Shown here piece by piece: positions 17,294 through 45,228 of a DNA stretch of 64,000 nucleotides. The notes under the pieces are model-generated. The model ran no database searches, was not told the DNA's origin, and saw only the letters and a list, made by a program, of their open reading frames with translations. The stretch comes from Tetrahymena thermophila SB210 (taxonomy: Eukaryota > Ciliophora > Oligohymenophorea > Hymenostomatida > Tetrahymenidae): contig NW_002476347.1 in the NCBI RefSeq assembly GCF_000189635.1, positions 105,387 through 169,386 on the forward strand. Reading direction: 5' to 3'. Within the stretch, counting starts at the first letter, position 1, and the number at the start of each line of letters is the position of its first letter. Made by a program: the position numbers and the translations under genes.

Positions 17294-17367
17294 GCCCGTG
17301 TAGCTCAGTTGGTTAGAGCGCGAGTCTCATAATCTCGAGGCCGAGGGTTCGATCCCCTCCGCAGGCA
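17294..17367 (+). tRNA. tRNA-Met(CAU), elongator type, copy 1
   Basis: A 74-nt cloverleaf. The D arm has GCTC pairing with GAGC, the anticodon loop is CTCATAA with anticodon CAT, and the T arm GAGGG-TTCGATC-CCCTC is perfect. The discriminator is A, with no encoded CCA. G1-C72 and the TTC T-loop mark it as elongator, not initiator, tRNA-Met. The acceptor stem has one C4 x A69 mismatch. T6 at 17368 onward is the terminator. Confidence 0.96.
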
Positions 17368-17530
17368 TTTTTTATTTTATTCCAAGGTGAAAATCAAACA
17401 TAGCGAAAAATATTTCAAAATTTATTTAATTTCGTAAGATTGCTTGTGAACAAAAGAAAAGTTTTATTTTTTTCAATAAACAAATTCTATTAGTTGACCT
17501 AGTGTATTCCATTTTAGAATATCATAATTA

Positions 17531-17604
17531 GCCCGTGTAGCTCAGTTGGTTAGAGCGCGAGTCTCATAATCTCGAGGCCGAGGGTTCGATCCCCTCCGCA
17601 GGCA
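17531..17604 (+). tRNA. tRNA-Met(CAU), elongator type, copy 2
   Basis: Identical over all 74 nt to the copy at 17294, including the C4 x A69 acceptor mismatch. It is followed by seven T. Its upstream block is the most diverged of the four (AGAATATCATAATTA in place of AGATTCTCATAATTA). Confidence 0.96.
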
Positions 17605-17748
17605 TTTTTTTATTTTATTATAAACGAAGATAGAAAATTGAAAAACATATTTTTAACTTATAATATTAAATACTATTTCAAAAAATGACTTTTTTACTCA
17701 AATTTTAAAAGTTATCCTAGAGAATTCTGCTTTAGATTCTCATAATTA

Positions 17749-17822
17749 GCCCGTGTAGCTCAGTTGGTTAGAGCGCGAGTCTCATAATCTCGAGGCCGAG
17801 GGTTCGATCCCCTCCGCAGGCA
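17749..17822 (+). tRNA. tRNA-Met(CAU), elongator type, copy 3
   Basis: Identical over all 74 nt to the other copies. Upstream block: CCTAGAGAATTCTGCTTTAG followed by ATTCTCATAATTA. A T6 run follows the gene. Confidence 0.96.
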
Positions 17823-17982
17823 TTTTTTATTTTACTAAAATTGAGAATCGAATATATGAAATATAATTGCAATTTATTTAAAATATCATTAGATTGATAA
17901 TAAACAAAAAAAGTTTTACTTTTAAAAATAAACATATTGTATTAGTTAACCTAGCATATTGCAATTTAGATTCTCATAATTA

Positions 17983-18056
17983 GCCCGTGTAGCTCAGTTG
18001 GTTAGAGCGCGAGTCTCATAATCTCGAGGCCGAGGGTTCGATCCCCTCCGCAGGCA
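17983..18056 (+). tRNA. tRNA-Met(CAU), elongator type, copy 4
   Basis: Identical over all 74 nt to the other copies. The upstream block AACCTAGCATATTGCAATTT is followed by AGATTCTCATAATTA. A T6 run follows. It is the last copy; no fifth copy or partial tRNA was seen downstream. Confidence 0.96.
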
Positions 18057-18734
18057 TTTTTTATTTACTAAAAAAAGACTGAAAATATAGAAAGAAATCA
18101 TTTTTAAATAAATAAAAACTAATTAAAATAATTGGTTTTAAGTTCTAGGCACTTTTAATTATAACAACTGTCCATTTCATTTAAATACATTTGATTTAGC
18201 AAGTATATATATTTAGTAAAATATCAAATATAAAAGTACTTAATAAATGAATATATATATATATGTGTGTTAATTACAAAATAATTTATATTTTTTAAAA
18301 ATTTTTAGTGAGAGATAAATTATAAGAAGGATTTTACGATGATTTCTAATAAAAATCAAAAGAAATTATAATTAGGAATAAAGTTTAAATAGCGAAAAAA
18401 GAAAAAATTTACAATGAGCTAAATGATTCTTAAAAAGTGATTAGGATTTAGTGAGAGTGAATAAATGAAAATAAAATTATTTTGAAAGAAAAATGATGAG
18501 CAATATTTTTTGTATTTTTTTGAATTTTTAAAATTGATTTTTATCTAAAAAATTAATTCAAAAGATTTTTTAAATTCTAATTAATTGAAAAATATTCTTT
18601 TTATTTTTCCTTAAGTTTTTAGAAAGTTAATTTTCCTATTTCTAAATATTTTTTATTATTTTTTTATAATTAATAAATTTGATAAATTTTCTCTTAAATA
18701 TTTCACTAAAAAAGCAAAATATTTTTAATATAAA
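18057..18734. other. Intergenic AT-rich spacer before the unknown family
   Basis: AT-rich, with a TA dinucleotide run near 18250-18265. One 35-codon ATG frame near 18340 ends at TGA and shows no similarity to its neighbours. Nothing else can be supported. It contains the 5' flank of the gene starting at 18735. Confidence 0.6.
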
Positions 18735-19910
18735 ATGGATATTTAAGTTAAGTAAGAATATGATGAGCATATACAAACATAATAAAATTATTTTCTATTT
18801 AACTTCAATGAAAAATAGTTTAATGATGTAAAGGATAAAGAACAATTTTATATGGAGCTATACTAATAAATCTATTAATAAATTATTAATTATAAACTTA
18901 AAATTCATTTTAATTTACCTAAAGTAAATGAATACTAATCTGGTATGTGTTTTGTACTCAAAAGGCCATCTAACTCTAGTTTAGGAAGAATAATTAACGG
19001 TATGAATGCCTCTAAATATTATAATTGCTAGAAAGGTTTAGTATGCTATATAGGCCAATTAGCTTATCTTGATGGTTATTTCAGATACAATAAGACCTTA
19101 GGGATTAGAGTAGTCAGATTTGCTAGCAAAAATCAATTATAACTAAACGAGGATATACTCAAATACATAGACTTTGTTCTAATTCATATATTTGTTAGAG
19201 ATATATCTGATGAAAATCAATTAAAATAAAGTGCATTTAAAGATGCAAATAATTGTTCAAGGAAGGTTTAATCACTATAAAACTATGATTATAATGGATA
19301 TATGGAAAAAGAGTCTTCTGATTCTGAAGAGAAAACGTTTAATCCACGTTTGATAAAATATGAAAAATTAAACAATAATGCGAGATAATTAGTTAAATCA
19401 TAGAGCTAAATGTACTTTGATGGGAGAGATATTTAATTAAAATTAAATGATGAAACATAAATACAGAGTAAATATGGATAAGAATAAAGACGAAAAATTA
19501 TTTTAAAAAGTAATTAGATCAAGATAGTAAAAAAATAGTCAACAATAGAATAATAGAAATAGAATTTTGAATTTCCTTCATAGAAGATCATCGTTAAATA
19601 ATAAAATGAGAGGATAATTACAAATATTTAACAAAAACAAGAAAATAGTTTATGCATGAATAGGGAATATAATTAATATTTGGGAGAAAATAACTAAATT
19701 TAATAGATGTTATTTTAACTATTCATATAAAACAATGATCTTTAATAAAAATTAATAGAAAAAGAAATCTCACAAAAAAAGGGAGAATTGATCGAGCTAG
19801 AAGCAAAATTATAAAAGCTAGTAGAGGAAAAAGAAGAATATATCAGGTCTCCAAAGTTGCTTAACTTATATTAAATGTTATCTAGTGAACAAAAAATTTA
19901 ATTTAGCTGA
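18735..19910 (+). CDS. Unknown tandem-family protein, member A (391 aa)
   Basis: Single uninterrupted frame (392 codons, TGA stop) when TAA/TAG are Gln. Residues 1-60 are N/Q/Y-rich (MDIQVKQEYDEHIQTQQN). A compact domain follows at about 65-160 with CFVLKRPSNSSLGRIING, KYYNCQKG, IGQLAYLDGYF, LGIRVVRF and then FVLIHIFVRD. Next come an acidic and basic linker and a C-terminal charged heptad-like stretch (IEKEISQKKGELIELEAKLQ), probably a coiled coil. No signal peptide or membrane segment is visible. The same architecture recurs at 22449 and, decayed, at 20488 and 20985. I do not recognise the family. It could be a small chromatin-type or protein-binding domain (the IGxLxYLD string loosely recalls BAH-like folds), but this is speculation. 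Confidence 0.85.
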
Positions 19911-20487
19911 TGTTTTACATCTTTATTGCTAGTTAAAACTAAATATTTGAGATATTATTAATCTTTTTTGTTGTTAATATATTAAATTTATGTCTGTTGT
20001 TTATTTTTAAATGAATAATTAATTTTTATTCTTCAATTTATATAAAAAACAATATTTTTTAAATGGAATTATAATATTTAATCATGTTGTTTATTTTTGA
20101 AAATATTATCTTAAAATATTGTAATTAATTGTAATTTAAAATATTATTATTTAGCTAATTTCTGATGTAAAGCTAACTAACTAATTTGATTTTTGATAAA
20201 ATTTAACTTAATATGCCTGATAGTATAAAGATACTTTCATAACTAAGCTAAAATGTTATCCCTATTATTATAGCAAGGATTTTATTTTATAAGAATTCTT
20301 AAACATATCAAAAAGTAATTAAAACAAAAAAAAATTGATTAGCTAGAAATTAAACAAAAAAGTAGAAATGAAAATAAAATTTAGTGTAGAATAAGAGCAC
20401 AGCAAAGAAAATCATAATAAGAATATTTATATTTATAATTTACAAAAACAATTTTTTATATAAACAAAGATATAGAAGCTTACAACA
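19911..20487. other. AT-rich spacer between family members A and B
   Basis: AT-rich sequence, with no supported gene. It probably contains the 3' flank of the intact member ending at 19910 and the degraded 5' part of the pseudogene that follows. Confidence 0.5.
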
Positions 20488-20900
20488 TGATGATATTTCA
20501 TAAGATTTATCAACTACTAATTAATCGGGTATTTACCATGTATGATGGATTTCTAAAAAAGATAAATATGAAGCAGTGATATGCTTCGTAATTAAAAGTG
20601 AACCCTGTGTTGAGTTATCGATAATCATAAAGCTTGTAAGGTTTATATCATATTAATAAAAGAATAATTAATAAGAAATAAGTTTCTTACAAAGGTCTAT
20701 TAGCATATCTAGATCGCTATTTTGAATCTGTATATTGTTTAGGGATTAGAGTATAGAACTTAGTATGTAAGAAACAGACTAAAGGAAGTTAACATTTCTT
20801 AAGTGTTTAGATATTACTTTAATCGATTGTTATCATAAGCACAAGTTTTTGAAGCATGTTTTAGTGATAAATCTTAAATTTATGATTTTAAAGAGTAAAC
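20488..20900 (+). pseudogene. Decayed member B of the unknown tandem family
   Basis: Pieces of the family domain are recognisable but lie in different frames. ICFVIKSEPCVELSIII appears near 20575-20640; after a frame change come LLAYLDRYF and LGIRVQNL near 20690-20765. The GKVYxIG segment between them is garbled, and no coiled-coil tail or single open frame joins the parts. This is either a pseudogene or an assembly with indels. Because intact copies flank it, decay of a tandem duplicate is the simpler reading. Confidence 0.65.
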
Positions 20901-20984
20901 TACATATAAGTTTAGTTATATGATTCAGATAAAAATTTTTGTTTACATCATCCTTCATTAAAATAAATAAAGTAATATAATGTA

Positions 20985-21905
20985 GAACAGGAAGTTAGTT
21001 GAATTAACTATAAATTTAAGATCGGATTCTTAGTGTATAAGTATCCTAATAAAGATTATAATGAAGAGGATATGCGCTTAATTTTAAAAGACCATCAATC
21101 TCTATCCTAAGTAATATTATATATGGTATGAATGGAGCGACAGCGTACAAAGGAAAGTTTGTCAAATAGGCGAATTAGTGTATCTCGATGACCGTTTAAA
21201 GTCTGATAAGAAATTAGGAATCAGAGTTGTAAAATTTAAAAATTAAAAGTATTACTAGGAAAATGAATGTTCACAATATTTTAAATATATGCTAACTCAC
21301 ATATAAGAGAGATATTACATAAAAAACTAATTAAATAAAAAGGTATACTAAATGATGGAATATGAAGATAAAGAGGACTCTGTATACATTATACCTTAGT
21401 AAGAATACATTATTTAAAATGAGCAACCTGTCAAAATAAATGTTTTCAATCAGCAGAATAATTTAAATTTTAAGAGGATTACAAGTCAGCAAAAGCAATT
21501 TATAAAAATGAAAAAAGTGTCTATGAAAAGCTTCTAAATTCATTTTTAAAATAAAAAAATTAGTAAAATTTTATTGGAGAATCAATTTAAGAAAAGCAAT
21601 AGCAAAATTAATCCTACTAATTATAAATAATATTAAAGTAAAAATAAGAGAATATGACTAAACATAATTAATTTAAGACTAACAGCTCTAATTTAAATAT
21701 AAAAATTGAAAAGAAGCCAAACAAAGTAAATAATGATTAAATCATTACATATCAATTGATTATCTAGAATAATGAAATCAAGTAATAATTATTGTAAAAA
21801 TAAATTGAGTAAACGAAGAAATAATTACTAGATTAAGAATAAAAATTAATGCAATTAAGATAAGGAATTGAAAACTTAACGAAACATCCAAATCAAATAA
21901 ATTAA
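20985..21905 (+). pseudogene. Decayed member C of the unknown tandem family
   Basis: The family core is present: LNFKRPSISILSNIIYGMNGA near 21077-21145, then after a frame shift KVCQIGELVYLDDRL and LGIRVVKF near 21150-21235. A TGA closes this frame near 21655. The coiled-coil tail continues in another frame (NEIKQQLLQKQIEQTKKQLL, about 21770-21890) and resembles the tail of the intact copy at 18735. At least two frame breaks and no clear start codon argue for a pseudogene. If the breaks were sequencing errors, this would be a full-length member. Confidence 0.7.
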
Positions 21906-22448
21906 AAAGAATATCTTTTAATTATTAAACTATATTTTTTTAAACTGTTTTAATTATTTAATAAAACTAAATCTTATTTTTTTATTTGCTTCATTCAATC
22001 TAGCAAAATTAAATATTTTGCATATTATTTTAAAAGTATTTAATAAATTATTTTATGATATCATTTTATCTTTCTTAAATATGAGTTATAATGAATTTTA
22101 TTTTTTCTATAAATATTTAAGAGATGCAAATTTTATTTATTAAAAAATTTTAAGATTACTTCTTTTAATTTTAATTCTATCAAAGGCTATTATGAAATTT
22201 AATTTTGTTATTAATCTGCTTAATCTTCTAAATTTTCTATGCATTTAATTAAAGAAAATATTATTAATTTTCATGTAAAAAGTGTCTTTATATTTTGATG
22301 TTGCGAATGAATATCTTGCTTGTTATATTTTTAATACAAAATATTAAATTTCAAAATAATTTATAATTTTTTGATTTTTTAAATTAATTAATTAGTTAAA
22401 AGTAGAAAAAAATAATAAAGAATCTTAATTAGCTAGCTATATTCTAAA
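21906..22448. other. AT-rich spacer between family members C and D
   Basis: No reading frame or motif is supported. Very AT-rich; it holds the 5' flank of the gene at 22449, which starts about 80 bp after a block GTAGAAAAAAATAATAAAG. Confidence 0.5.
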
Positions 22449-23615
22449 ATGAATAACAATATCATAATTAAGAAAGAATAAGTAGATCCAATAGAAGAAT
22501 AATAAGACTATTTTCATTTAGAATTTAGTGAAAAATATTTTAATAGTCTAGAAAATAAAGAAAAATATTATTTGGATGTTTATAGCCGCATTTATGATTT
22601 GATATAGAGTAAAAAACTAAAGATGTATGATGATTTTCCAAAATAAGTGATATATCAATCAGGAGTTTGTTATGCGGTAAAAAGACAAGTTAATTCATCA
22701 TTAGATAGAATTATTATTAATATGAGTGGGTCTAGATATTATAGGTGCGATAAAGGAAAAGTTTATAACATAGGTTCTCTGGTTTATCTTGATGGATTTT
22801 TTAAATTTGATAAAAAGCTTGGAATTAGAGTGGTCAGAGTTTTTAGTAAAAGCTAAAAGCAACTTAACTAAGAAGTCTAAAAATTTATAGATATCATTTT
22901 AGTACACATATATAATAGAGATCTAGAAAATGGAAACTACAAATAAAAAACCATAGATGAAGTTTATAGCAAATCAAAATAAAATTATTAGAATAATGAA
23001 GATTCAAATAGCATGATAGATGAAGATCAATCAGATATATATGAATCAGAACCATATATGCCACCCTCTTAAATATAATAAAAACTAAACCAATAAGTAT
23101 TATAAAAATCATTAAAAGAAAATTAAAATTAAGAAGAATTTGAATACATTGAACAACCTTAAAAAATAAAAGACAATAAAATAAACAAAGATGAGTCAGA
23201 CCGCTTTAAATAGCTTTCTTTACAAAACTTGTAAGTAGACGTAATAGCAAATATGCCTAAATAATAACTAAAACCAGAGTTAAAATAGCAATAACTTTAG
23301 TAATAAGGCAATATTAATTTTGAATATAATTTAGATAGCTAATTAAGTTTAAAAAGTGAAATAAAATTAAATATAGACGAAAAAAACTAAGTTCAATAAG
23401 CGCTTTATTTATTATACATGCAAAATAATGAACTTTAGTAAATATTAACAAAAAGAGATATAGCATAAAAAAAGGCAGAGGTGGCGATGTTAGAATAAAA
23501 GTTAAATAAATTGGTTTAAGAAAAGGAATTATATACTTAATAACCATAGTAATTAAATATAGCTTAAATTATATAAAATAATATAAAAAAAGAAGAGTAT
23601 GATAACTAAAATTGA
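22449..23615 (+). CDS. Unknown tandem-family protein, member D (388 aa)
   Basis: One open frame of 389 codons ending in TGA (ciliate code). An N-terminal acidic/aromatic segment (DYFHLEFSEKYFNSLENKEK) leads into the family domain: VCYAVKRQVNSSLDRIIINM, SRYYRCDKGKVYNIGSLVYL, DGFFKFDKKLGIRVVRVF, then IDIILVHIYNRD. The C-terminal half is Gln-rich (many from TAA/TAG) with a charged helix ending near TKRDIAQKKAEVAMLEQKLN, a likely coiled coil. It is clearly paralogous to the gene at 18735 in order of blocks and length. No membrane segment. Function unknown; the conserved pair of aromatic and Cys residues (YYxC) and the following KG suggest a folded core rather than low-complexity filler. Confidence 0.88.
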
Positions 23616-25344
23616 TACAAGGAACATTTGCAATATATTTTATTATGCAATTTTAGTAATTTTTATAGCAAAAAATTGTTTAACATTTGCTCGTCATATA
23701 ATAGATAAGGGGAATTATTGCCGGTCAACCCATATTAATAACCATAAAACCAAAAATTTAACGTAATTATTTACTTCATTTAAAAAGTTTAATTTTAAGG
23801 AGGTAGAATCTTTTTATGGTATCTCAAGTACTAATATTATTATTAAAATTGTATTGTTAATTAATACAAATGAGTATACTTAAATATCTAAAATTAAAAT
23901 ATTTATATTAAAAATAAAACTAAATAAAAAAATGTAAATTAAAAAATTTTTTTGTTTGTAATTTATTTGTATTTAACTCAATTTCTTAATATTAAAAATT
24001 CTAAAATATTTTAAGATTAAAAAAATCAGATTAATAATAAATTGTCTATCTTTGGCTTTTATTTGATTAAATATTCATTAAATTGATCAGATAATTCTGA
24101 TAAACTCAGTTTATTTTAAAATATTAAAAAAGTTCGCTAAAAAATAAATCAAAATAATTAAATGTNNNNNNNNNNNNNNNNNNNNNNNNNNNNNNNNNNN
24201 NNNNNNNNNNNNNNNNNNNNNNNNNNNNNNNNNNNNNNNNNNNNNNNNNNNNNNNNNNNNNNNNNATCAAAATAATTAAATGTAAAATAGATTACTTGAT
24301 ATAAATTTTTACTAAGTATTTTATAAAAGCTATCAAGTCAACAAAAATCTGTTTTAAATAGCGTATTAAAAATATTAATTACAAAAATGAATGAATTTTT
24401 AATCCAAAAATATAAGATAAATTGTTAATTACCATAATTTATTTGTTATTAATGATCTTCAGAAAGCTATTTTTATCAAAACAAACATAAAATTTATAAC
24501 TAAGTACATTTAAAAGTTAGAATAAATTTAATATATTGATACATAACTAAATGCTATTATGTGTTTTTTTATATTAACATATATTTTTTCACATTCAGTA
24601 TGCAACATATAATTGACATTATAGCTTAAAGATCTAATTAAGAAAATAAAGATTAATAGTTTATTTATTATAAAACAATAAAAGATAAATAAGAATTTAA
24701 AACAGAAGCTAATAAATTTAATTTACTAAGTGGAATAAATAAAATATTTAATTTCAAAATAAATAGTCTCAAGTTAGCGTTAGGTATAGTTTCGTGCATT
24801 AAAATATTAAACTTTAATGAATAATGAATGAAGGGAGATGATATATTTTAATTAAGAAAAGAGTAAAGATATTTATTAAATATATAGGAATATAGTTAAA
24901 AATAAGAAAAAATATCACTTTAATTTGAGAGTATTTTTGAATAGACTATTTTCTTTAATATTTTTTGTTTTATTAAATTTTGATATTAAGAAGCAAATTC
25001 AAGCTTTCTACCTTTTTAATATTAATAAATTATTATGTTTAATTATATAATTCAATCAGAATATTTTTTTTGTTTTTAATGGCAACTCCTTAATTTTTAA
25101 CATTCAATATTTAATAGTTTAAAATGTTTATTTAAAAATTTATTTTACCCAACTTTTAATTGAAATGAAATTTATGTTTGATTTAAATTTTAAAAATAAT
25201 TATCTTGATATTTTTATTAGAATAAGAATAATTATTTTAATTTTATTTAAAATTTGAAATATTAAACAATTCTTATTCAATCAAGCTCAAAATATTTTCA
25301 TTTTTTATTTTTTATATTTTTAATAATTAATTTTGTGTATATTT
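23616..25344. other. Long AT-rich intergenic region containing the assembly gap
   Basis: Mostly featureless A+T on both sides of the N-run. One small frame at 24600-24827 (75 codons, ATG to TGA) ends NSLKLALGIVSCIKILNFN, which loosely recalls a leucine-rich repeat and may be a relic of an LRR gene. It is too short to call. No other gene is supported. Confidence 0.5.
24166..24265. other. Assembly gap (100 N)
   Basis: Exactly 100 undetermined bases, the usual placeholder for a gap of unknown size. The 18 bases just left of it (24148-24165, ATCAAAATAATTAAATGT) are repeated exactly just right of it (24266-24283). The two contig ends therefore probably overlap, and the gap may have no real length. 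Confidence 0.98.
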
Positions 25345-27952
25345 ACAATTTTTAAAATCTAAATTTAATAATTAATTCTAATTATTACTATTTATAATTC
25401 TATTATTTCATTATAAATAAATATCTAGTTGATAACAAATTGCTATAAATAAAAGAGTTTTTATTTAATTTGAGACTCTAAATAAATACTTAGATTTATT
25501 TCTAATAAATAATTTATATATTTAAATTTTTTATCCAAAATTTTAGTTTAATTTAATGCTGAGTATTGAAATATTTTATTTTGAAATATTTAAAATATGG
25601 AATAAAAAATAGTTTCTTTTAGTTTGCCTAGAAGAAATTTATTTCTTATTTTCTTTTAGCAAGCAAAATATATTTAATTATATTTATTATGTAGTAAAAA
25701 ATTTGTTCTAATTAATTGAAGGAAATTTAGAATTATACTTCAATTTAATAAAAAGAATTGTTTTGATAATCTATTCAATTAGCGAGAAAAGAGATAATTA
25801 GATAAAAGAGTTTTATCTCAAATAAATAAAAGACTTTTATTTTTGAGATATTTAATATTAATTTATTATAATTAAATAGCATCTACAACAACAATTGTTT
25901 ATTATAAGACTTTTTACGCGACTCCTGATCATAAATATGATTATGAGAATAAAGCTACTAATGTTATAATAAAGATATATTCTTTTTTTGATTATAATTC
26001 ATTTCATTATCAAATTAATTACCGCCAAATCAAAAAAATTATGGAAAATATTATATGATTTTTGCTTTGTTTTCTTTAAATATTAGAAAATCAAGTGTTT
26101 TTCTCTCTTTTTTAATATAAAGAATTATAAAGTCTAGTTCATCAATAGAGATAATAAAAGTGGAAATAATACTTGATTGAATAAATAATTAATTAATAAA
26201 AAATTCTAACAAAAAAGAAGCAAAAAAACATACTTACAAAAAAAAGAAAAATTAAGAATGAATAAAGAAGCTTATAAATAATAACCAATATCTGAAAAAC
26301 TGGCTTTTAAAAATATACATTTTGATGATGATAAAGAATTAGCTAATTTCTACATTTCTATATTTTAAAAATGCGTTGAGAATATTTCTAATTAATAATT
26401 GTCTTTTTTAGAGGAATTTCCTTAATTAAACCAAATATAAGTCGATCGTTGCTATGTTATGAAACTCTAATCAAATGATCTAATAAGAATAGCTAGAAAA
26501 GTATAGTTTCTATCTGTTGGTAAAAAATATTTTAATGCAGGCAACTTTAAATACGTTGTTGGTAATTTAACATTCTAACAAAAGAACCTATAATGTAGAA
26601 TAGTTAAAGTTAATGATTAAAGAAATTTAAGTGATGATTATGAAAATCTTAGGGATTTTAAATTTGTTCATTTCTACCAAATAGATGACAAAAAAAACCC
26701 AAAATAAAGCATCAAAAGTACAATTAAATACTATTATAACAAATCCTAATAGTAAGAATCTGAAGAAGTATAAGATCGACCTACTTCGCAAAAATCTAGT
26801 ATCAATAAAAGTTAAGTACAAGAATTGCATGAATCTGTAATTTAAGAAAAAAAATTAGAAAATTAAATTAATACGAATCTGAAGAAAGAAAACAGCTCTA
26901 ATTTAATAGATGAAGATTCTGAGAGCGAAGATAGTAATGAAGCAGCAATTACAAATAATTAGAATTAAATTACAATAAATAATAAAAATGCAAATGATAT
27001 TTAAAGTAATTATCAGCTTTAGTAGTAACATGGTTTGACAAATCCAAATCAAAAAGAAGATTAGTCAGCAATAATACAAAATCTTCTTTATTTGATCAAG
27101 CAAAAAGATATGTAGCTCTTAGATTAGTAATAAATAATCTTACAACACTAAATGCAATAATTAAATATGTAAAGATAAAGACTATTATCTTTGGACGATA
27201 TAAATAATTACAATCCTTTATAAATAGGCATTAATAGTGATCATTATAAAAATAACCCAAATGCTAATAGCTTAAATAAATTAGATAATAAGTTTTAAAA
27301 TAAATAAATAAAAGTATAAGATGATGATCAAACAGAAATAATTGAATTAGAAGATGATTGAAAAGATAATAATATTTTATAAAATAAAATTATTTTCTTT
27401 CTTAAATTATATTAATTTAAATAAATTAAAAAAATAAATAAATTTGCTTTGCTTTTAATCAAAATAAAATTCTAACTAACTAAACTAATTATATTTCATT
27501 TATTAATATTTGTTTTTCTTTATTATATATAGATTAAGATCAACATTTTTATTTGTATCATTTGTAAATTAAAAAATATATGTTGAATAAAAATTACCTT
27601 AAATTTAAAATGATATAAATGAACATTGATTGATACTCCTTTGAACAATTAAAATAAATTATCAAATAAATTTAATACATTTTATCTTTAACTTAAAAAG
27701 GTGGTGATTAACTAAATTAGATAGATAATCATTTTTTGGTATTTGATAAAAGTAAAATGACCTAATTTTTCTAACCTAAATAGTTAAGTCACATTTAATT
27801 AATTTTTACACTTTTTTATAATTTAATTATGATCATTAAGCTAAGCTTATAAATATTTTCCTTTAATTTGTATCTATTAATTAAGATATTAATTTATCAA
27901 AAAGTGAAAATAAGTTTGAAAGAATTTAAGAAATAATATTTAGAACAAAAAA
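25345..27952 (+). repeat. Segmental duplication, left copy (about 2.6 kb)
   Basis: Matches 28057-30811 base by base with moderate divergence across the 5' flank, the whole coding region and the 3' flank. It begins near ACAATTTTTAAAATC and ends at AAATAATATTTAGAACAAAA. Small indels distinguish the copies, including a 27-bp unit present once here and three times in the other copy. The duplicated block carries its own promoter-proximal and 3' sequence, so both genes may be expressed. Confidence 0.88.
26258..27361 (+). CDS. Unknown family protein, diverged member E (367 aa)
   Basis: One intronless frame of 368 codons, ATG to TGA with TAA/TAG as Gln. The N-terminal domain (about residues 10-150) reads ELANFYISIFQKCVENISN, LEEFPQLNQ, CYVMKLQSNDLIRIARKV, KYFN, YVVGNL, LQCRIVKV and FVHFYQID. 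This follows the same order as the CYxxK, YYxC, YxIGxL, LGIRVV and LxHIYxRD blocks of the intact genes at 18735 and 22449, so I infer a distant paralogue. The linker is Ser/Glu/Asn-rich (LIDEDSESEDSNEAA), followed by a Gln-rich helical region and an acidic C-terminus TEIIELEDD. It is the left partner of the gene at 29045. Function unknown. Confidence 0.85.
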
Positions 27953-28056
27953 TGGGGGGTCACATCAGGGACTCATTCATTTTTGAATGGATATTTTTCA
28001 TTCAAAAATTATTTTTCATAAAACAAAAAAAAAAAAAAAGTCAAAATACATAAAAA
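27953..28056. other. Junction spacer with G6 run and an 11-bp inverted repeat
   Basis: The only non-duplicated sequence between the two segmental copies. It starts TGGGGGGTCACATCAGGGAC, unusually G-rich for this window. It then has a perfect 11-bp inverted repeat, ATTTTTGAATG at 27979-27989 and CATTCAAAAAT at 27999-28009, with a 9-base loop. A poly-A run (about 28025-28040) follows. Confidence 0.8.
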
Positions 28057-28203
28057 TACATACAATTTTTAAAATCGGAATAGATAATAATTAATTCTAA
28101 TTATTACTATTTTTAATTCTGTTATTTCATAATAAATAAATATCTACTTTTTTGATAACAAATTGTTATAAATAAAAGAGTTTTTACTTAAATTTGAGAC
28201 ACT

Positions 28204-28284
28204 AAATAAATACTTAGATTTATTTCTAATAAATAAATACTTAGATTTATTTCTAATAAATAAATACTTTGATTTATTTCTAAT
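28204..28284. repeat. Minisatellite, 3 x 27 bp
   Basis: Three head-to-tail units of 27 bp beginning AAATAAATACTTAGATTTAT at 28204, 28231 and 28258. The third has one substitution (CTTTG for CTTAG). The corresponding place in the left segmental copy (near 25480) has a single unit, so the expansion arose after the segmental duplication or contracted in the other copy. Confidence 0.9.
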
Positions 28285-29044
28285 AAATAAATAATTTATA
28301 AATTTTAATTATTTATCCTACATTTTAGTTTGATTTAATGCTAAGTATTTAAATATTTTATTTTGAAATATTTAAAATATGGAATAAAAAATAGTTTCTT
28401 TTAGTTTGCCTATAAGAAATTTATTTCTTTTTTTCTTTACGCAAGCAAAATATATTTAATTATATTTATTATATAGTAAAACATTTGTTCTAATGAATTT
28501 AAGTAAATTAGGAATTCTACTTCAATTTAATAAAAAGACTTATTTTGTTAATAATTATACAATTTGGGAGATAGATAAATAAATAAATAAATAAATAAAT
28601 AAAAAAGTTTTATCTCAAATAAAGAAAAGACAATTATTATTGAGATATTTAATATTTATCTATTTTAATTAATTAGCATCTACAATAACAATTGTTCATT
28701 ATAAGATTCTGATCATAAAAATAATTATGAATTAGAATAAAGCTGATAATGTTATAATATAGATTTATTCTTTTTTTTAATTACAATTCATTTCATTATC
28801 AAATTACTTTCAAATCAAAAAATTATGGAAAATGTAATATGATTTTGCATTGTTTTCTTTAAAGAATAGAAAATTAAGTATTTTTCTGACTTTTTTAATA
28901 TAAAGAATTGAAAAGTCTAGTTCATAAAGAGAGATATTAAAAGTGGTTTTTTTATTTGGTTTATAAATAATTAAATTCATAAAAAATTCTAACAAAAAAA
29001 AAGGAAGCAAAAAAACAAACTTAAAAAGAATAGAAAAATTAAGA

Positions 29045-30217
29045 ATGAATAAAGAAGCTTATAAATAATAAAGAATATCTGAAAAACTGCCTTTTTATAA
29101 TATTCATTTCGATAATGAAAAAGAATTAGCTAAGTTCTACATTTCAATATTTTAAAAATGCGTTGAGAGTATTTCTAATAAATAATTGACTCTTTTAGAA
29201 GAATTTCCTAAATTAGACCAAATATAAGACAACTGTTGCTATGTTATGAAGCTCTAATCAAATGATCTAATGAGAATAGCTAGAAAAGTAAAGTTTCTAT
29301 CTTTTAGTAAAAAATATTTTAATGCAGACAACTTTAAATACGCTGTTTGTAATTTAAATTAATAACCTATGAATCTATAATGCAGGATAGTTAAAGTTAA
29401 TGATTAAATAAATTTAAGTGATGATTATGAAAATCTTAGGGATTATAAATTTGTTCATTTCTACCAAAAAAATGACAGAATAAACCAAAACTAAATCATC
29501 TAAAGTACAATTAAATACTAAGATAACAAACTCTAACAGTAAAAATCTGAAGAGGTATAAGATCGACCTACTTCACTAAAATCTTGTACTAATTAAAGTT
29601 AAGTAGAAGAATTGCATGGATCTGTAATTTAAGAAAAAGCATTAGAAAATAAAATTAATAAGAATCTAAAGAAAGAAAACAGCTCTAATTTAATAGATGA
29701 AGATTCTGACAGCAAACATAGTAATGAAGCAGCAACTACAAATAATTAGAATTAAATTACAATAAATAATAAAAATGCAAATGAGATTAAAATTAATTAT
29801 CAGCTTTAGTAGTAACATGGTTTGCCAAATTAAAGTCAAAAAGAAGATTTGTTAGAACAAATAAAAAATCTTCATTCTGAGCTTAATCAACTAAAGATAT
29901 AGCTCAATTTAAAAGATACATAGCTCGGTCAAAAAGATAAAGTGAGCAATCTAAAAGAATTATAGATCATAGAATACATAAAAGTAATCTATTAACTCTA
30001 ATTTCAATTATTTGATATGTAAAGTTAAAAACTTATGTAAACTATATATAATAGTTAAAATCCTTAATAAATGGGTATTAATAATGACTAATATTTAAAT
30101 AACCCAAATCAGTTAAATGCTAATAGCGTAAATAAATTAGATAATAAGGTTTAACATTAATACATAAAAATAGAAGATGAAGATCAAACAGAAATAATTG
30201 AATTAGAAGATGATTGA
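29045..30217 (+). CDS. Unknown family protein, diverged member F (390 aa)
   Basis: One intronless frame of 391 codons ending in TGA. Close paralogue of the gene at 26258: same start (MNKEAYKQQ), same domain blocks (CYVMKLQSNDLMRIARKV, KYFN, YAVCNL, LQCRIVKV, FVHFYQKND) and the same acidic end TEIIELEDD. It differs by an extra heptad-like segment in the C-terminal half (LEQIKNLHSELNQLKIQLNL), a stronger coiled-coil candidate than in its partner. That the frame survives several indels between the copies suggests selection on the protein. Function unknown. Confidence 0.85.
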
Positions 30218-30811
30218 AAGGATAATAATAAATTAATAAAAATAAAATTATTTTCTTTCTTAAAATATATTAATTTAAATAAATTAAAAAATAAATAAGC
30301 TTGCTTCGCTTAATCAAATAAATTCTAACTGAATTAATTAATATTTCATTTAATAATATTTGCTTTTCTTTATTATATATAGATTAAGATCAACATTTAT
30401 ATATATATTATTTGTAAATTAAAAAAATATATGTTGAATAAAAATTTCCTTAAATTTAAAATGATAAAAATGAACATTGATTGATTCATACTCCTTTTAA
30501 GAATGAAAATAAATTATCTAATAAATTTAATACATTTTATCTTTAATTAAAAAAGGTGGTGATTAATTAAATTAGATTGATAATCATTTTTTGGTATTTG
30601 ATAAAAGCAAAATGAGATAATTTTTCTAATCTAAAAAGTTAAGTAACATTTTAATTCATTTTTACACTTTATTATTATTTAATTATGATCAAAAGCTAAG
30701 CTTAAAAATATTTTCTTTTAATTTTTATCTATTAATTAATATGTTAATTTATTAAAAATTGAAAATGAGATGATTATGAAAAAGTTTAAGAAATAATATT
30801 TAGAACAAAAA

Positions 30812-31691
30812 AACCATCTCTCTTAGTAATGTACAACTCATTAATTTACGTCCTGCTATCCACAATATCAAACCATTATCAGTAGCCAAACCAATTATAG
30901 CCAACATTGCTAGAATTATTATTTACATTTTAATAAATTTTACTGATGAATTCTAACTTTCTGATTTTATTTTATGAATTAAAACTAAATTATTTCATAA
31001 AAATAATAAAAGATTAGTTAAAAATATAATCATATGAAAATTAGAAGAACATAGCTGATCTAAAGTTTATTACTAGCAATCTGAATTGCTCTGAATCAAA
31101 AAATATTTTTTTTAACATAAATTTGTATTTATAGAGAAAATAATTATCATTCTTCTTCTTAAAATAATCTAAAAATTATAAACAAAATCCTGAAATAATT
31201 GAACCAAAAGAAACTAAATAATTAAAACAAAATAAGTAAAAAAGTAAATTTTGTTGGAATACAATAAATATGAGATGATTAATAATAGTAACTGATTAAA
31301 ACATTTAATTAATTTATAAAAGGTTAATTTAATAAATTAAAACACAGAATTAAGATAAATTGATTATTGAATTTATATTTATTGAAAGTTTAATGTTTAA
31401 AATTTGTTGATTTGATTATAAATATTTTTAATTTTCCAAAATAAATTAAATTTTTTTGAGTTAAAAAATACGTTTAGGAATATTTAATGATAAAAATATT
31501 TAATAAATAAATTAGTTTTATTTAATTTAAAATTGCCTCATAAATTAATTTGAAGAAATTTATTAAAATTTATATAGAATAATTATTCTTATTATTATAA
31601 TTAATTTTTATTTATTATTATAATCATAATTTAGGTCATATTTATTTTAGATTTTGTTTGTCAGTGATTTTCAATTTTTTTGTTTAGTATA
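30812..31691. other. Intergenic region with a small compositional island
   Basis: The first 100 bases (30812-30920) are clearly less AT-rich than the rest and are open on both strands in at least one frame, but no protein was recognised. The remainder to the channel stop codon at 31692 is AT-rich and featureless, containing the channel gene's 3' flank. Confidence 0.55.
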
Positions 31692-34600
31692 TCAAAATTA
31701 AGGGTTTTACCTATTAAAAATAGATTTTTATATCGGTGACAGGGCTTTTTTACTGTCAAACTATGCTAAATTTACTATATTTTGTATATTTTTATCTATA
31801 ATTTCAGAATTAAGTTTAATTGGTATAAATTCTTTTGATTAAGGACTATCTTTTTAGCTATGTTTGTTATTATTTAGGTCACTACCCTAAGAATACTAGC
31901 TCTCTTCTAGATTGTTGCGGTTTAAGGCAAAACTATTTACTCTATTTCTTGTTCCTATTTTTTCATCTGAACCACTTCTATTTTTAGTATTTTATTTGCC
32001 TACATTAGGAGTTTCAAATCCATTTGATTTCTTCTTTTACAGTATTTATTTTTTCTACAAGTACGATCCTCTTCTATTTTCTTTGATATTTTAATCATCT
32101 TTGCGTTATTTGTTTGCTTTTTATTTTTTTAAAGCTTTTATGAGTTTAGAAAATTATTTTCCAATAATTTTGTTAGCCTTTGCAATTACTCTCAGATAAT
32201 TTCCTTTAGGGAAGTAATGCTAAAATTATTTTAATTCATCAAAAGACATGATTGTGAATAGTGTTTCTAAATCGTTTTCATTTTACTAATAATTGGCACT
32301 TTCTGATTAGTTTTACAACTATAATTGCTGTAATTAAAGATTACTGCCTTGAAGGTTTTAAAATTAAGTAGACTAATTGCTAATAGGAACTATGTTTATA
32401 AGATTATTGTTATTCAGCATTTATTGGTCATAATTACTACTGCTAAGTTAAGGCAATAGCTGCAATTTTATATTTGAATACTGCTTTTAATATTAAGAGT
32501 GTGTATTTTTGATAGTATCATTACTTCCTTTCATAAGCGGAGTTCCCATCTCATTCATTTTGAAACCACTTTTCCCGACTCCTAAATAATTTTATCTGAA
32601 TTGAGAAATAGAATTTGCCATGTTTACTCCATTTCCACTGTGTTTTCTTTAATTTAAGATATTTTACTGATCTATCAAATTCTTTCTCTGCAAGAAATTG
32701 AATTCTTCTTGAGATTCTATCTTATTTATCAAATTCATGTTGTGCAACTGCTATTTTTTTATGCTGATAGCTGATGTTGGTGATTGGTCTCCTTGTCTGC
32801 TTTTCTATTAGGAGCTAATACTTTCATTATTGCTTCTATTTAATTAGCTAGCAATCTTCGCCTTTTAGATAAAGTTTAAAACATTATTCTTGACAACATG
32901 TGAAGTTTATCTTGGAGATGGCATTGGGCTTAAGGGAGAATTCACATCTTGTTTCTAATTTTTTGCTCCAGGAAATAAGAAATTTGGGTTTCTTGCAGAA
33001 GGGGATAAATTCTATGTGTCTTATGTCGTCATGTTAGTTTTATTTTTCTTAAAGCTGGATTAAGAAGGAAGCTTTCCTTTTTATTTATCTTTAGAATGCA
33101 TAGCTTTCTTTTTACCTTTATCATCGTGATCTCCGTAAGGAGTAGACTCTTCAGATACTTAGCTATCTTTGTAATCCTTATTTGATTGAATATTTTTGTC
33201 ATGATTAATATCCTCAAATTGAGCCTCATTCTAATGGAGATTAATAAGGTTTTAACCAATTCTACTTATTTTTTTTCCATTTTTATTTAAATTTATAATT
33301 TGTTAATTACCTTAATTGTTAAAATATTTGCCATTTTCAGAGTTTTCTTAATTTTAAATTAAATGAATTAATTTTTAAGGCTGATGGCTTTATACCATAG
33401 AAATTCCTTATTTTCCAACTTAGTTATTTACACTTTTTGATGCAAATATTCCTAAATTCTTAAATGATTAAGATCTAAGATTTTCAATTTTTTCTATCGA
33501 TCTCCTTTTAATGCTAGGAGAGAATGTATTTTGAATTTCTGAGTGCTTGATTTCGTATTCTCCAAATCTATTTTGGCATGATTTTCTTTTATTTTTATCT
33601 GAATTAGGCATGATTTCATTTTAAATCATCTGCTCAGTTAGAGTAATGTTTCTAATCATTTCAAGCCCGTTCTGAGAAGTTCTGCTTTTTCTTCTTTCTC
33701 TGCTCAATTGATCTTCTTTTCGTCTCTTAAGAGGACTTTGCTATTCTTAAGGTAATTTATTTTAATTTTCAGAAGCCTTTTAAAATAATTCATTAAAGTC
33801 TTTTGATTTGTTTGATTTTCTTCTTTTACTGTTAATATCTTAGTTAAAGCCATCTGCTATGTTCGAAAACGATATCCTTTTAGAGCTCTTTATTTCTGAT
33901 TAGGAATTTGATATTAGAGTTTATGACCTTTAAGAGCTTTTTCTTTTCAAACCTTCTTCATTCAAACTATTAATTTTAACACTTTTTTCTTTTTTAATCT
34001 TCCTAGGATTGTTGCTGCTTTCTTAATTTTTTAAAGCTAATTCTTTGATGTTTGGTATTAAGTTTTGCTATTAATTTTATTTGCTAGAAATATTTTGTTG
34101 CTAACTATCCATTATTTCTCTAGGCTATTTCATTATCTAGCCTGTGTTTTTTGTGGTGCTTTTTTCTTCTTTTTCTATATTAAAATCATCAATTTAGTTT
34201 CTTGAATCTAATATTAAACGATCTTTTCCAGGTTCTTGCTTGCTAGATTTTTTACTTAGATCAAAATTATCTAAATCAGCTATGAATAAAAGCTGAGGAG
34301 ATTATTCTTAATCAGAAAAGCAACCTATAGACATTTCTCTATCATGCATTTATAGAGTTCCTTGTTTTTTTAATGTTTTAGGAGATAAGTTAGTAGCAAT
34401 AGGTATTTTATTAATTGTTCTTATACTTCCTAAATCTGAGTTTGTCATTACTGTTAACTGCTTAAATCCAGCTCTTTTAATTATGTTAGCATCAGAGCTA
34501 TTAAGATTTTCATTATTATTTTTACCTGTTATACTCTACTCCATCTTAATACTTCTGTTACTTTACTAATTACTATCATTCTTTTTTTGGATTATATTTG

Positions 34601-39770: not shown

Positions 39771-42700
39771 TCAATGTTTCTTTTGTGGTTATAAAGTAGT
39801 TATTTATTTAATATTTTGTCCTTTTACTTTCAAATATAAGAATGTTAAGAACCTTAAAACAAACCTCTCAAAGAATATGCAGACAACAAAATTAATTCCA
39901 GACAGATATAAGCAATAGTAATTCCAAGATTTTGGCATCACAGAAATAGGTTCTTCATCGTCTCTCTAGACTTTGTCAAATATCTAATTTGGTAATTAAA
40001 AATTAAAAACATATAACATTTTTTAATTATTTACATCTAGCATGTATTTTGTAAAGGGATCATAAAAGAGTTGTACATAGATTCCAATCAAGAGTATCCC
40101 TATCACAGACCCAGTGAAATATTTATTAGTGTAAAAGGGCTTTTTGAAAGGTTTACCAATTGAAAAAGACAAACAAGTTGCTACGTATTGAAAATTTGTA
40201 AAGAAGAACAAGGTCTATTATTATAGAGATTAATTTAGAAATTAAATTGAGAATTTAATTTATTAATTTAAAAAATTAAATAAATTTAAGCTAGCTTACA
40301 TTCCAATTTCCAATTAAATTTAATTAAATGTAAAATATTTTTATTTAATTAATGATAAAATAAAATACCGTGGATTCATAGCAAGATTTTCTACCATCAA
40401 GTTCATCTAAGTCACCAATATATGAATGAGCTTGCTTTACAGATAAGTACCAACTTTGACTTTTAAGTGTGAAGAATAAATAAATCTATTTTTTTAAAAT
40501 TGTAAATATGAGTTATTTATTATTCATATGATATTTGGATTACTTAGAATAAACCGTTTATTGCAACTTAACCAATAACTGAGCAAAGGACAGGAAAGGA
40601 AACCAAGCTAGAACCTGGAACTTATTTAGATAGTTTATCATAAGAATCTGTTAATCCCATAAAGAAAGCAAGTGGAAGAATGATAACAACATCCCAATAT
40701 AAGAACTGGAAGTCACCTGGAAGTGATTGCACTGTGTACAAGAGAGTAGTTGTGAAAAACTGTATCATAGAATATAATGCCATAAACTTAAAACACGAGA
40801 AACTAGTCACTAAAGCAGCTCTTCCTTCTTTTAATAACTAAAAAAATTTTTAGAGAATTGCTAATTATTTTTGAAAAAATTTTGTTAAAAATCACTTACT
40901 GAAATAACACATGATATATCTTAAACTTTTGAAGTAAAAGGAGCAGCGATAGAGGCCTCTGCTTCTGATAATGATATTCCTATGTCTGCAGTTTTTAATG
41001 CACCACAGTCATTAGCACCGTCTCCGCACATACCACAAGTTGGCTTCCAAGGTAGTTTTTACAGCGATTATAGCAATTGAGCTTTTTCATCAGGCTTCAT
41101 TCTTGCAAATATTTATGTTCTTTGAAGCATAGTTTCTGCTAACTGAGTTTTAGCCTCACTCTAATCAGCCTCAGAAATTATCTTAGAAAAAGCTCTACCT
41201 GTTATAGCAAGAGCGAAAGCTTCTTGATTAACCCATGGCACTTATTGTTCCTTGTATTTTGCAAGCATATTAATATCTGTGTAAACGAGAGCCTGCATTT
41301 CTTCTTTTTCAGGTACTTCTTCATTTCCTTGCTCTTCTTTATCTTCATTATTATCATCATGATTCAAAATATCTGGTAAATCTAAAGTAGACGGGACACC
41401 TCCAGATTTTCTAAGCTTTTAAAGTTAATTAAAGAGAGATCTCCTATTATTTCCAGTAAGTGCGCTAAAAGGACTCTTTATGCTATTACGACTGCTAGAA
41501 ATAATTTTTTCATTATGCTCAATAATTTCTAATTCTTCGAATAGTTCTTTTTCTTCTTTGATTTCTGGAACTCCTTCTTCTTAATATTAAGCAACTCCTC
41601 CAACAGGCTATAAGTTATCTTCATCCAAAACTTTATCACCCATTTCAAAATCTTTCCATTCAATGTATTGTTCATCTGGATTATCAGGGTCATCTTGCAA
41701 ATCTCCAAAATATACTCTCATGTCTTATCTTACTATATTACATTATCTTCCCACAGATATAGCAGTCAGAGCATTATCACCTGTTACCATAATAGTTCTG
41801 ATATTAGCATGAGAAAGTTTATCAATAATTTCAGTTGTTATAGGTTTAAGTTTATTCTCCATGATAAGCAAGCCAGTGAATATTAAATCTTTTTCTAAAT
41901 CTTCCCTATCCATTTTTTAAAGTTTTCTATATGTCATTTTTAACATTCTAATACCAAACGCCAACACTCTAAATCCCTTTCTAGCATAAAAGTCAAGTAC
42001 CTTTTTAATTTTATTAATATTTTTTTAATTATTAATTTAATCTATAGCGTCTTTAAAATGAAAAGCAATAAATGAGCAAAGAGAATTAATGAAGTTTTAT
42101 TGCTTTTAAATATTTCTTATAAATTTATTTTTTTAGTTTTGAATGAGCAAAAAGTGAAAAATTACTTTATGGAAGTTATGAGGAATAGAAGATGGACGTG
42201 AAAGTTCAAAGATTTTTTCAGGAGAGCCTTTGACATGCAATCTAAAAAAGTCGGTATCATTTGATAAATTACGGACGATTGTACTCATTCTTTAAAGCTT
42301 AGAAGAAAATTCAAATCTTTTGATAATACCAATCGATGTAGGGAGTGTTTTCTTAATTATAGATTTTTCAATTGTATTCACATCGTTGTTGAATAACTCT
42401 TCCTTTTATGTAGGTTGCACAATAGCGAGTACCAATTCATCATACTTTCCCATGTCATTTTCAATTAATTCCCATTAGGTAGCTTCAAACATTTTCACTT
42501 CTAAAGGATCACCAATAAGTTCTCCTTTTACTCTAGTAATGCCATGACAACTAGCCATGCATTCTTTTAAAACTATCTCAGGATCTCCTACAAATGAAAA
42601 AGGATTTTATTCTCCATAAATTGACTCATCTTCAGCTATTGTACTTAATTTCACTTTCTTATTCTTGCCTAAATCCTTAGTATCTTCAACCAGCTTTAAA

Positions 42701-45228
42701 AATTTTACATTGTTTGGAGAATTGTAACAAATTGGACGAACACCATACATATCTAAGCCTTCTTCTGTGAGAGTACCTGTCTTATCAAAGCACATAATAG
42801 TAACTTTACCAGAAATATTAACCTTTATTATATTAAATTATAAAAATATTTTATTAATTTTTTTCTTTCTCAAAAATAGATTCTTTGTTAATTTCATTTT
42901 TTTATCAAATTTTTTTATGTTTTACCTTTGGTGGAGATATGCAAAATATTTTATGATTCTTTAATCTGTTTATTGCAAACGATATACCAACTGAAAGACA
43001 AGTTGGTAGTGCAGGAGGAACAGTTATAGTAACAAGATCGAGGGAATGCAAAAACATGTCTCTAGGATCAACAAATCCTTCTCTGAGACCCTAAATTTGA
43101 TCTGGAAGAGAATAAATAAAACCCAAGACTGACATGACAGCCATGCAAGCAATAAATTTGAGAGAGTCAACATAAAACGAAAAGGAGTTACTTTTAGGGT
43201 ATAAAATTGATCTAACCAGTTACCCTTTCATTGTGTTAAAGCTAGTCTGACTAACCAAACCAAGCACAGGAATCTTACCCTTCATGTAATATCTATTAAA
43301 ATTTATTAATTTAAAGAATTAAAAAATATTATTAAAAATAAATTACCTTGTCTCGATACATTTGGTGCCAGCAAATAATGTAGATTACTTGCCTTCTTCT
43401 TAAGAACTATAATAATTATTGTTGTATGGTAAAGAAGATTTCATAATAGGAATAGACTCTCCCGTAAGCATAGATTCATTCATAATACATGATCCATTTA
43501 GCAAAATAACATCACAAGGCATAATTTAACCATCTGTAATTTCTATGATATCACCAGGAACTAAATGAATAGAGGATATTTCCTATCTTTTCTTTATAAT
43601 TTCCAATGCTATATTTAGCATCCCTTATCCCTTTTAAGTATTTAAATTAATTTTAAAAAACAATTTCATTTTTTTAAAATATTAAAATTGAATATTTTAT
43701 CAACTCAATTTTTTATTAAAATTATAATTTTTAACAGAAATAATTTTAGTAAAAATATAAAATTTTTCTTTTCAAAAACGTTTAATTAAAAAATTTTTTA
43801 AAACAAACCAAATAAAATTTATCACATCTTTTTTAATATAAATTCTTTGATAATTTTTAGCTTTCTTATAATCTAAGTTTTTCAAAAATATTTATGTGTT
43901 AATATTTATTTAAATGCAAAAAATAATTTTTTTAATAAAATATTTTACCTGGATAATATAATCTTAAATGCATCTATAAACATAAACAGGTGTTTCAAAG
44001 TAACTCATTTTTTTAAGTTTAGAGTAATTATTTTTTGCTTCTAATAGATTGATTACAGCAGAAAAAACTGAAGTAACTAAAATAATAGTAGCATAATAAT
44101 AATAAGGTAATATAAACCATAGAACAAAACTGAATAATTAAAATAGATAGAAAGGAGAGAGCACTTCATCAAATAGTATTTTTACTGTTGTTTTATCAGG
44201 TATTTCGGTGTTGTTAAGTCCATAAATAGATTTAAGCTAATCCAAACTTTCTTAATCCTTAATTCCTCTACCATATTAAGTATGAATTTCATTATTAGTT
44301 TTTCTATTGAGTGCAAATTATATTGGATGAAAAGAATTCTACAAATCGTCATAGTAGTATGAATATAATCTAAATGTAAATGTCTATTTTATATTAAATA
44401 TTGCTTAAGTTAAGTAATTTGCATAAATTAGCTACTTAAATTTTATTAAAAATCTTATTAAAATATTTAGATATTTATCATGTACTCTTATTTATTTATT
44501 TATAAATTTATACTTTCTTATTAATTCTAAATGAAAAAAACTAACTTAGCATTTAATTTTCTATTTTTAATTTCCATATTGGCATATTAAATAAAATCAA
44601 AATTTAAAGTTAATAATTCAATTTAAAATTAGTCTATTTTATTTGCTTTGTAAATACTCAAATAACCTTTATTTAAAATAATTACAAGATATTCCTTAAG
44701 CTTATTGTCTATATTCATTTCTTTGATCACTACTGTTTCCAATGTTTCTACATCATCTGTATTTTATTTTTTATAAAAAAATACTATTAAAATGATTTAA
44801 TTAGTCCATAAACTACCTCCAGATGTAATCTTTAAGAATCTGGCTTTTGATTAATCGCATGATTTCATTTAAATCATAATTTTGAAGTTAATTTGCCATC
44901 TTGAAAACAGGTACAAGATACCTCCACTAAATACAAATAAAAAGTAAGAGAAAATCAACTTGATATTTGAGATTTCATATGCTTCAATACTTTTAATAAT
45001 GCCTTCTTCTTGAACATCATCTGGTAAAACGAAATCGCAGCTGTTTTCCTTTTTTTCTATGTTTTTAGCACTCTCTTCTTAATCAAAGGGGATACTTTTT
45101 TAAACAAAAATAAATTATTTAGATATTAAGTCAAAAATGGAACAAATTTTGGAATTTCCAAGAAATTTAATGTCAATTTCAAAGATAAATAAAATTTCTC
45201 TCTTATTCGTGCTTGCTAAATAAATCAT
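39771..45228 (-). CDS. P5B-type P-type ATPase (ATP13A2/3-like), downstream tandem copy
   Basis: Endolysosomal P-type pump; animal P5B members export polyamines. The N-terminal cytosolic part ([15 protein letters not shown]) is followed by a hydrophobic P5B-type segment ([18 protein letters not shown]). The actuator motif TGES is near 43460. The M4 motif [16 protein letters not shown] is near 42995-43035; PPALP rather than PPELP marks P5B over P5A. The phosphorylation site [10 protein letters not shown] is near 42770-42789 and the hinge [11 protein letters not shown] near 41005-41035. C-terminal TM segments end in KKH-TGA at 39771. About ten AT-rich introns. The start at 45228 is an in-frame ATG upstream of the conserved part; the frame stays open above it, so the start is uncertain. 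It is a tandem duplicate of the gene beginning at 46025, same orientation, about 800 bp apart. Transported ion cannot be read from sequence. Confidence 0.93.

Follow-up and report, generated by a model that had tools for sequence, protein, structure and literature searches.

In the WRKY/GCM1 clan (CL0274), the N-terminal domain of Ssr4 and the NAC, WOPR and CG-1 domains group tightly together (Holm 2022, PMC9252788). The subgroup was drawn from fungi and plants, with the Ssr4 domain being fungal and CG-1 also present in human (PMC9252788). Neither Ssr4 nor At3g16750 is believed to bind DNA (PMC9252788), and the crystallographers reportedly saw no DNA-binding surface on Ssr4 (PMC7716260); the fold alone can thus not separate a DNA reader from a protein scaffold. 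Here, we describe a tandem gene cluster of the ciliate Tetrahymena thermophila, whose products carry an N-terminal domain that would sit next to Ssr4-N, NAC and WOPR, judged by predicted fold only. By the same prediction, the family would be a ciliate branch of this superfamily of plant and fungal gene-regulator domains. The cluster lies in a window of 64,000 nucleotides (C189:105387-169386; the window is the whole stretch of DNA that was analysed), and consists of four intact genes, A, B, C and D, all on the plus strand and read with genetic code 6, and two decayed copies of the same family. The genome that was searched comprises 101 Mb in 445 contigs. A 30-base sequence flanking the M element, as published for T. 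thermophila (PMC4780704), is present there exactly once and its reversed pattern is absent, which places the source in this species or in one very close to it.

Members of the family

The four genes that the initial annotation had called intact are all open under code 6. Gene A (18735..19910) encodes 391 amino acids with 42 in-frame TAA/TAG codons, gene B (22449..23615) 388 amino acids with 43, gene C of the diverged subfamily (26258..27361) 367 amino acids with 39, and gene D (29045..30217) 390 amino acids with 39; A and B share 38% identity over the entire protein length. The N-terminal domain is encoded by 18777..19220 in A (placed by alignment with B, C, D and E, the last a dispersed member described below), 22491..22934 in B (the part that was modelled), 26285..26716 in C and 29072..29503 in D (placed by alignment of the domains). 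The code 6 open reading frame of D runs from an ATG at 28379 and comprises 612 amino acids; similarity to C begins only at 29045, and the stretch upstream is probably not coding and part of the duplicated flank described below. Both decayed copies sit between A and B on the plus strand and were recognised by tblastn, TGA stops and frame changes, in agreement with the two dead copies initially annotated. The first retains the N-terminal domain only and spans 20367..20834 in frame 3 with one TGA (tblastn with B residues 2-152, E 3e-11). The second (about 20985..21921) is broken into pieces in different frames with TGA stops, and its core at 21148-21312 was recovered in the genome-wide search at E 5.7e-5.

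The initial annotation had joined C and D to A and B by a common order of short sequence blocks. In the genome-wide search, B is recovered with the C domain at E 4.2e-4, and in a BLASTP comparison among the six domains of A to F all 30 directed pairs align at E 8e-6 or better, these values being indicative only, since the database consisted of six sequences and was searched without composition correction. Based on the genome-wide match of the C domain to B and on the pairwise alignments, C and D belong to the same family as A and B, so that a split of the family in two, the refuting outcome named at the outset, did not occur. The shared blocks themselves hold in part: the domains align across the members, but YYxCxKG is found in A and B only, and C and D are about seven residues short at this site. 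Six columns are invariant over the six domains (Y27, L43, Q56, Y99, L125 and H139 in the numbering of the modelled B).

While the six tandem members proposed at the outset are all present, further members lie outside the cluster. With the B domain as the query, the search recovers A, decayed copy 2 and two dispersed genes: E on contig C398 (551 amino acids, E 6.8e-13) and F on contig C114 (233 amino acids, E 2.7e-5, and 8.5e-8 for F back to B). The searches are asymmetric, as C and D find each other and, when the domain is the query, B as the only other member, and F finds B only. The presence of E and F suggests that the family is older and that its local burst is recent. The genome search scores only the best candidates, so the family comprises at least six genes. 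No relative was found at E 1e-3 in a scan of viral contigs with 58 pattern matches, and no paper on the family was found in the open-licence literature, in which a nameless family is hard to search.

Predicted fold of the N-terminal domain

The B domain was modelled with AlphaFold2 from the window sequences alone. The model has a predicted local distance difference test score (pLDDT) of 82.5 and a predicted template modelling score (pTM) of 0.79, and it supports, as a prediction, the compact N-terminal domain that had been postulated. It consists of a helix (20-39) and five strands (59-64, 86-94, 97-104, 110-117 and 135-142), with an extra helix at 71-79. The model of the C domain is poor (pLDDT 55.9), yet its elements follow the same order.

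Ssr4-N is the closest structure for both models in comparisons with VIA-align. The best ten of the 50 matches listed for B comprise three Ssr4-N, five NAC and two WOPR structures, with WRKY ranking lower; for the poor C model, Ssr4 and NAC come first among 50 matches and WOPR is absent from these 50. The domain, which could not be named in the initial annotation, may be placed near Ssr4-N, NAC and WOPR by predicted fold only, and a named Pfam family was not obtained. Indeed, the whole proteins of all six members yield no Pfam match that attains the cut-off (D was scanned inside the 612-amino acid reading frame), the top score being that of DUF1088 in F with 17.8 bits against a cut-off of 27. 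The family is therefore still unrecognised, as had been claimed, in that a confident Pfam match was not found. Searches of the PDB by profile and by sequence brought up weak matches only, at E 0.39 and 0.94 and, for three chains of Flp recombinase, at 0.17-0.28.

Proposed function and alternative readings

The N-terminal domain is followed by a polar, glutamine/asparagine-rich linker and a short heptad tail. A crude shuffle test, which covered the five tails of A to E, was passed by A (residues 341-368, 19755..19838; 23/300 shuffles reach the score), D (residues 267-294, 29843..29926; 9/300) and E (21/300), and heptads are not clear in B (107/300) and C (43/300). The heptads thus support, in three of these five tails, the oligomerising coiled-coil tail that had been proposed for the family. 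The heptad tail would join subunits, the pairing being read from the heptad pattern.

The reading that we prefer, tentatively and with slightly less than an even chance, is that the gene products are chromatin or DNA regulators in the nucleus, which belong to a single ciliate family and combine a clan-type domain, a polar linker and an oligomerising tail. The domain would be homologous to the clan, as its predicted fold suggests, and might use the open face of its sheet for docking, either to DNA or to a chromatin complex, and the heptad tail might assemble dimers or larger units. The nuclear location, the docking partner and the oligomer are steps that we infer.

A narrower form of this reading, whose probability overlaps with it, holds that the proteins are Ssr4-like scaffolds, in which the clan fold serves, within SWI/SNF or a similar remodelling complex, to bind protein rather than DNA. 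We regard this as possible, though rather unlikely. It would fit the closest structure, Ssr4-N, on which a DNA-binding surface was reportedly not seen (PMC9252788, PMC7716260). The SWI/SNF complex of Tetrahymena also contains the glutamine-rich subunits Saf2-Saf4 without recognised domains (PMC5844071). Furthermore, tryptophan is absent from all six domains, and the DNA-reading motifs of NAC, WRKY and WOPR are consequently missing. A net charge of +2 to +10 is not decisive for DNA binding. Against a scaffold of this kind, the Ssr4 family model gave no match in the genome; however, it was silent in every control as well.

According to another explanation, the fold match reflects a common alpha+beta arrangement, and the family has no relation to the clan and acts in another part of the cell. 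Several results argue in this direction, and they weigh against the preferred reading as chromatin or DNA regulators. A Foldseek search with the B model returned no significant match. The VIA-align Z scores lie in a range that the tool calls common, and an unrelated mitoribosomal chain is interspersed in the lists of both B and C. At the sequence level, a profile of the six domains was compared by hidden Markov model (HMM-HMM) alignment with three NAC sequences and one CG-1 sequence, all profiles being shallow, and a signal was not obtained: the score was reached by 64 of 100 shuffles for NAC without its last strand, by 24 of 150 for NAC including it, and by 28 of 100 for the genome's own CG-1 domain. 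In contrast, the best ten matches of B and the best eight of C all come from families that were unified on other grounds (PMC9252788). We regard a fortuitous fold match, like the scaffold, as possible, though rather unlikely.

The last strand of the NAC domain gave a further indication. When the NAC domain is complete, the top local HMM-HMM alignment lands on this strand, and an ungapped scan with the last-strand 11-mers of the family peaks there in three of three NAC domains, with means of 15.3, 13.8 and 10.8 against 5.2, 4.8 and 7.2 for the next best position; in the chosen register, the last strand of CG-1 scores between -9 and 5. The strand was picked after the alignment had been viewed, and the three NACs are related, so that three of three counts about once. 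The structural alignments end at model residues 144 (B) and 134 (C) opposite residue 163 of ANAC019, in what we take to be the numbering of that protein, and imply the same NAC register. The agreement is suggestive only.

C and D also end in TEIIELEDD, which resembles a SUMO-interacting motif (SIM; IIELEDD at 27338..27358 in C and 30194..30214 in D, plus strand). Each of the two proteins has two SIM-like motifs, one of those in D lying inside the domain, and 8/500 and 7/500 shuffles, respectively, reach these numbers. PsiKxE sites in their broad form number seven in E, a count reached by 1/500 shuffles, while the counts of A, B, C and D are reached by 236, 27, 381 and 277 of 500. A link to SUMO was not used, as the SIM-like ends of the duplicates C and D are one observation and the PsiKxE excess is clear only in E.

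Evolution of the cluster

The cluster expands by tandem duplication and sheds copies by decay, which agrees with the birth-and-death cluster first proposed. Its newest pair is C and D, which are recent duplicates: they lie in a duplicated segment, the copies of which (25344..27952 and 28061..30812, plus strand) share 82.8% identity over 2785 columns in blastn, and their synonymous divergence (dS) is 0.13. A and B are saturated with a dS of about 1.4, and the ratio of replacement to synonymous divergence (dN/dS) of their domains, 0.26, is rough. Between C and D, the overall dN/dS is 1.16 (0.78-1.83); taken separately, the domain gives 0.67 (0.34-1.52) and the tail 1.55 (0.95-2.83). The tail has more replacement changes (93/552 sites) than the duplicated flanks have differences (149/1477, counts derived from flank identities; p 6e-5), and no difference from the flanks is seen for replacement changes of the domain (p 0.76). 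Only four gaps separate the coding regions as compared to 22 in the flanks (Fisher p 0.005), and none of them lies in the domain. Two of the coding gaps are multiples of three and the others, of 4 and 1 in opposite copies, net three, whereas only 1 of the 22 flanking gaps is a multiple of three. C and D have retained their reading frame, with rapid change in the tail. Positive selection on the tail is suggested by these comparisons, but it is not proven, because the dN/dS interval includes 1. Tandem species-specific genes with raised Ka/Ks, foremost leucine-rich-repeat genes, are common in Tetrahymena (PMC6564038), so that rapid change in a tandem cluster is by itself nothing out of the ordinary there.

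The same figures could be read as C and D being relics that drift to loss rather than genes under diversifying selection. Neither the overall nor the domain dN/dS differs from 1, the domain has accumulated replacement changes like the flanks, and two neighbouring copies are already dead. However, both frames are open, coding gaps are rarer than flanking gaps with a gap-free domain and a net frame that is kept, and drift alone would not give the excess of replacements in the tail. We judge decay of C and D to be unlikely.

A bolder version of the preferred reading as chromatin or DNA regulators is that the family consists of sequence-specific DNA-binding ciliate regulators, an independent branch beside NAC, WOPR, CG-1 and Ssr4, whose oligomerising tails would be under diversifying selection. 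These might have a role in nuclear development, directed against germline elements that change fast, much as the boundary protein Ltl1, which binds DNA, acts on its own targets; we give this version a low probability. The least probable identity, a diverged FYRN domain in which IGxLxYLD..LGIRVV would resemble the FYRN motif G..PVGFxSxR, has a glycine/arginine spacing like that of the genome's own FYRN protein by eye, but is largely refuted, since Pfam lists no FYR match for the family and detects the genuine FYR gene. Pfam lists FYRN (PF05964) for none of the six proteins, and its sole match in the genome is this other gene; no FYR structure is among the 50 VIA-align matches of B or C, an absence that proves nothing. 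The separate FYRN/FYRC protein (L010, contig C280, 1222-1824, minus strand) scores 57.8 bits for FYRN and 82.8 bits for FYRC.

Surroundings of the cluster

A run of 100 N stands between B and C (24166-24265). It looks like an assembly join, because an identical 18-mer stands on either side, and intergenic sequence between B and C is maybe missing or doubled there. The G+C content across the cluster (18001-32000) is 0.15-0.21, compared to 0.25-0.32 over the window's first 18 kb. Immediately upstream are four identical tandem tRNA-Met genes (anticodon CAT; 17294-18056, plus strand) at a spacing of 218-237 bases. A second tandem family on the minus strand comprises three code 6 reading frames of 631, 636 and 639 amino acids (55878-57773, 58268-60178 and 60597-62516) with mutual identities of 80% and about 50%. 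Pfam gives no match for these at E 0.01, and they may represent a ciliate family of leucine-rich or cysteine-ending proteins. Two further reading frames on the minus strand (40807-43173 and 46535-48436) match HAD-hydrolase, the former additionally cation-ATPase, and are probably exons of P-type ATPase genes. A gene of the tubulin-tyrosine ligase family lies at 52411-53769 (minus strand).

Comparison with known systems

Lia3/Ltl of T. thermophila is likewise a small Tetrahymena protein family (Ltl1 has 417 amino acids), and two of its members were shown to bind DNA (PMC4780704, PMC6698652). As described there, it differs in the dispersed locus numbers of its four genes and in a common central region of 100 amino acids; the two families were compared by description only. 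The published coordinates of the LIA3 knockout (320.5-322.2 kb of a scaffold) fit none of A to F in either orientation, which excludes little, as the correspondence of the assemblies is unproven.

WRKY domains (7z0u, 7z0r, 2ayd) carry the signature WRKYGQK and zinc ligands, and WKATGTDK is the DNA-reading strand motif of NAC. With no tryptophan in any domain, neither these two motifs nor DxxxW can occur in the family. WRKYGQK is accordingly found in 0/6 domains, a conserved set of cysteines and histidines is missing as well, and the E domain has no cysteine at all. NAM/NAC (PF02365; 3swm, 1ut7, 1ut4, 7xlj, 7xp3, 3ulx) is not listed by Pfam for the six proteins, and its HMM-HMM score is not above that of shuffles. 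The DxxxW motif of WOPR (Gti1/Pac2, PF09729; 4qtj, 4qtk), which holds the recognition loop (PMC9252788), is present in 0/6 domains. CG-1 (PF03859, CAMTA), of the same subgroup (PMC9252788), was compared by sequence only, is not above shuffles either and is not listed for the six proteins; searching the genome with it returned only two pieces of one gene on contig C65. That separate CAMTA-type gene (L022, C65:653182-653492, minus strand, at least two introns by eye) is recognised by the CG-1 model. Nothing relevant on WRKY in ciliates or on CG-1 in Tetrahymena was found in the open-licence literature.

The Ssr4 N-terminal domain (PF08549; 7k82, 7k7v, 7k7w), part of a subunit of SWI/SNF and RSC in S. 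pombe, shares about 7-10% identity with the family, and SWI-SNF_Ssr4_N is not listed by Pfam for any of the six proteins. Should the fold assignment be right, specific genes of a model ciliate become candidates for lineage-specific regulators, and their role at DNA or chromatin is open to direct tests, as tagging and knockout are routine in T. thermophila. The family would then also provide a live tandem cluster that shows birth, decay and rapid tail change, and the regulator subgroup of Holm 2022 gains, beside its fungal and plant members, a ciliate branch that the Pfam models miss.

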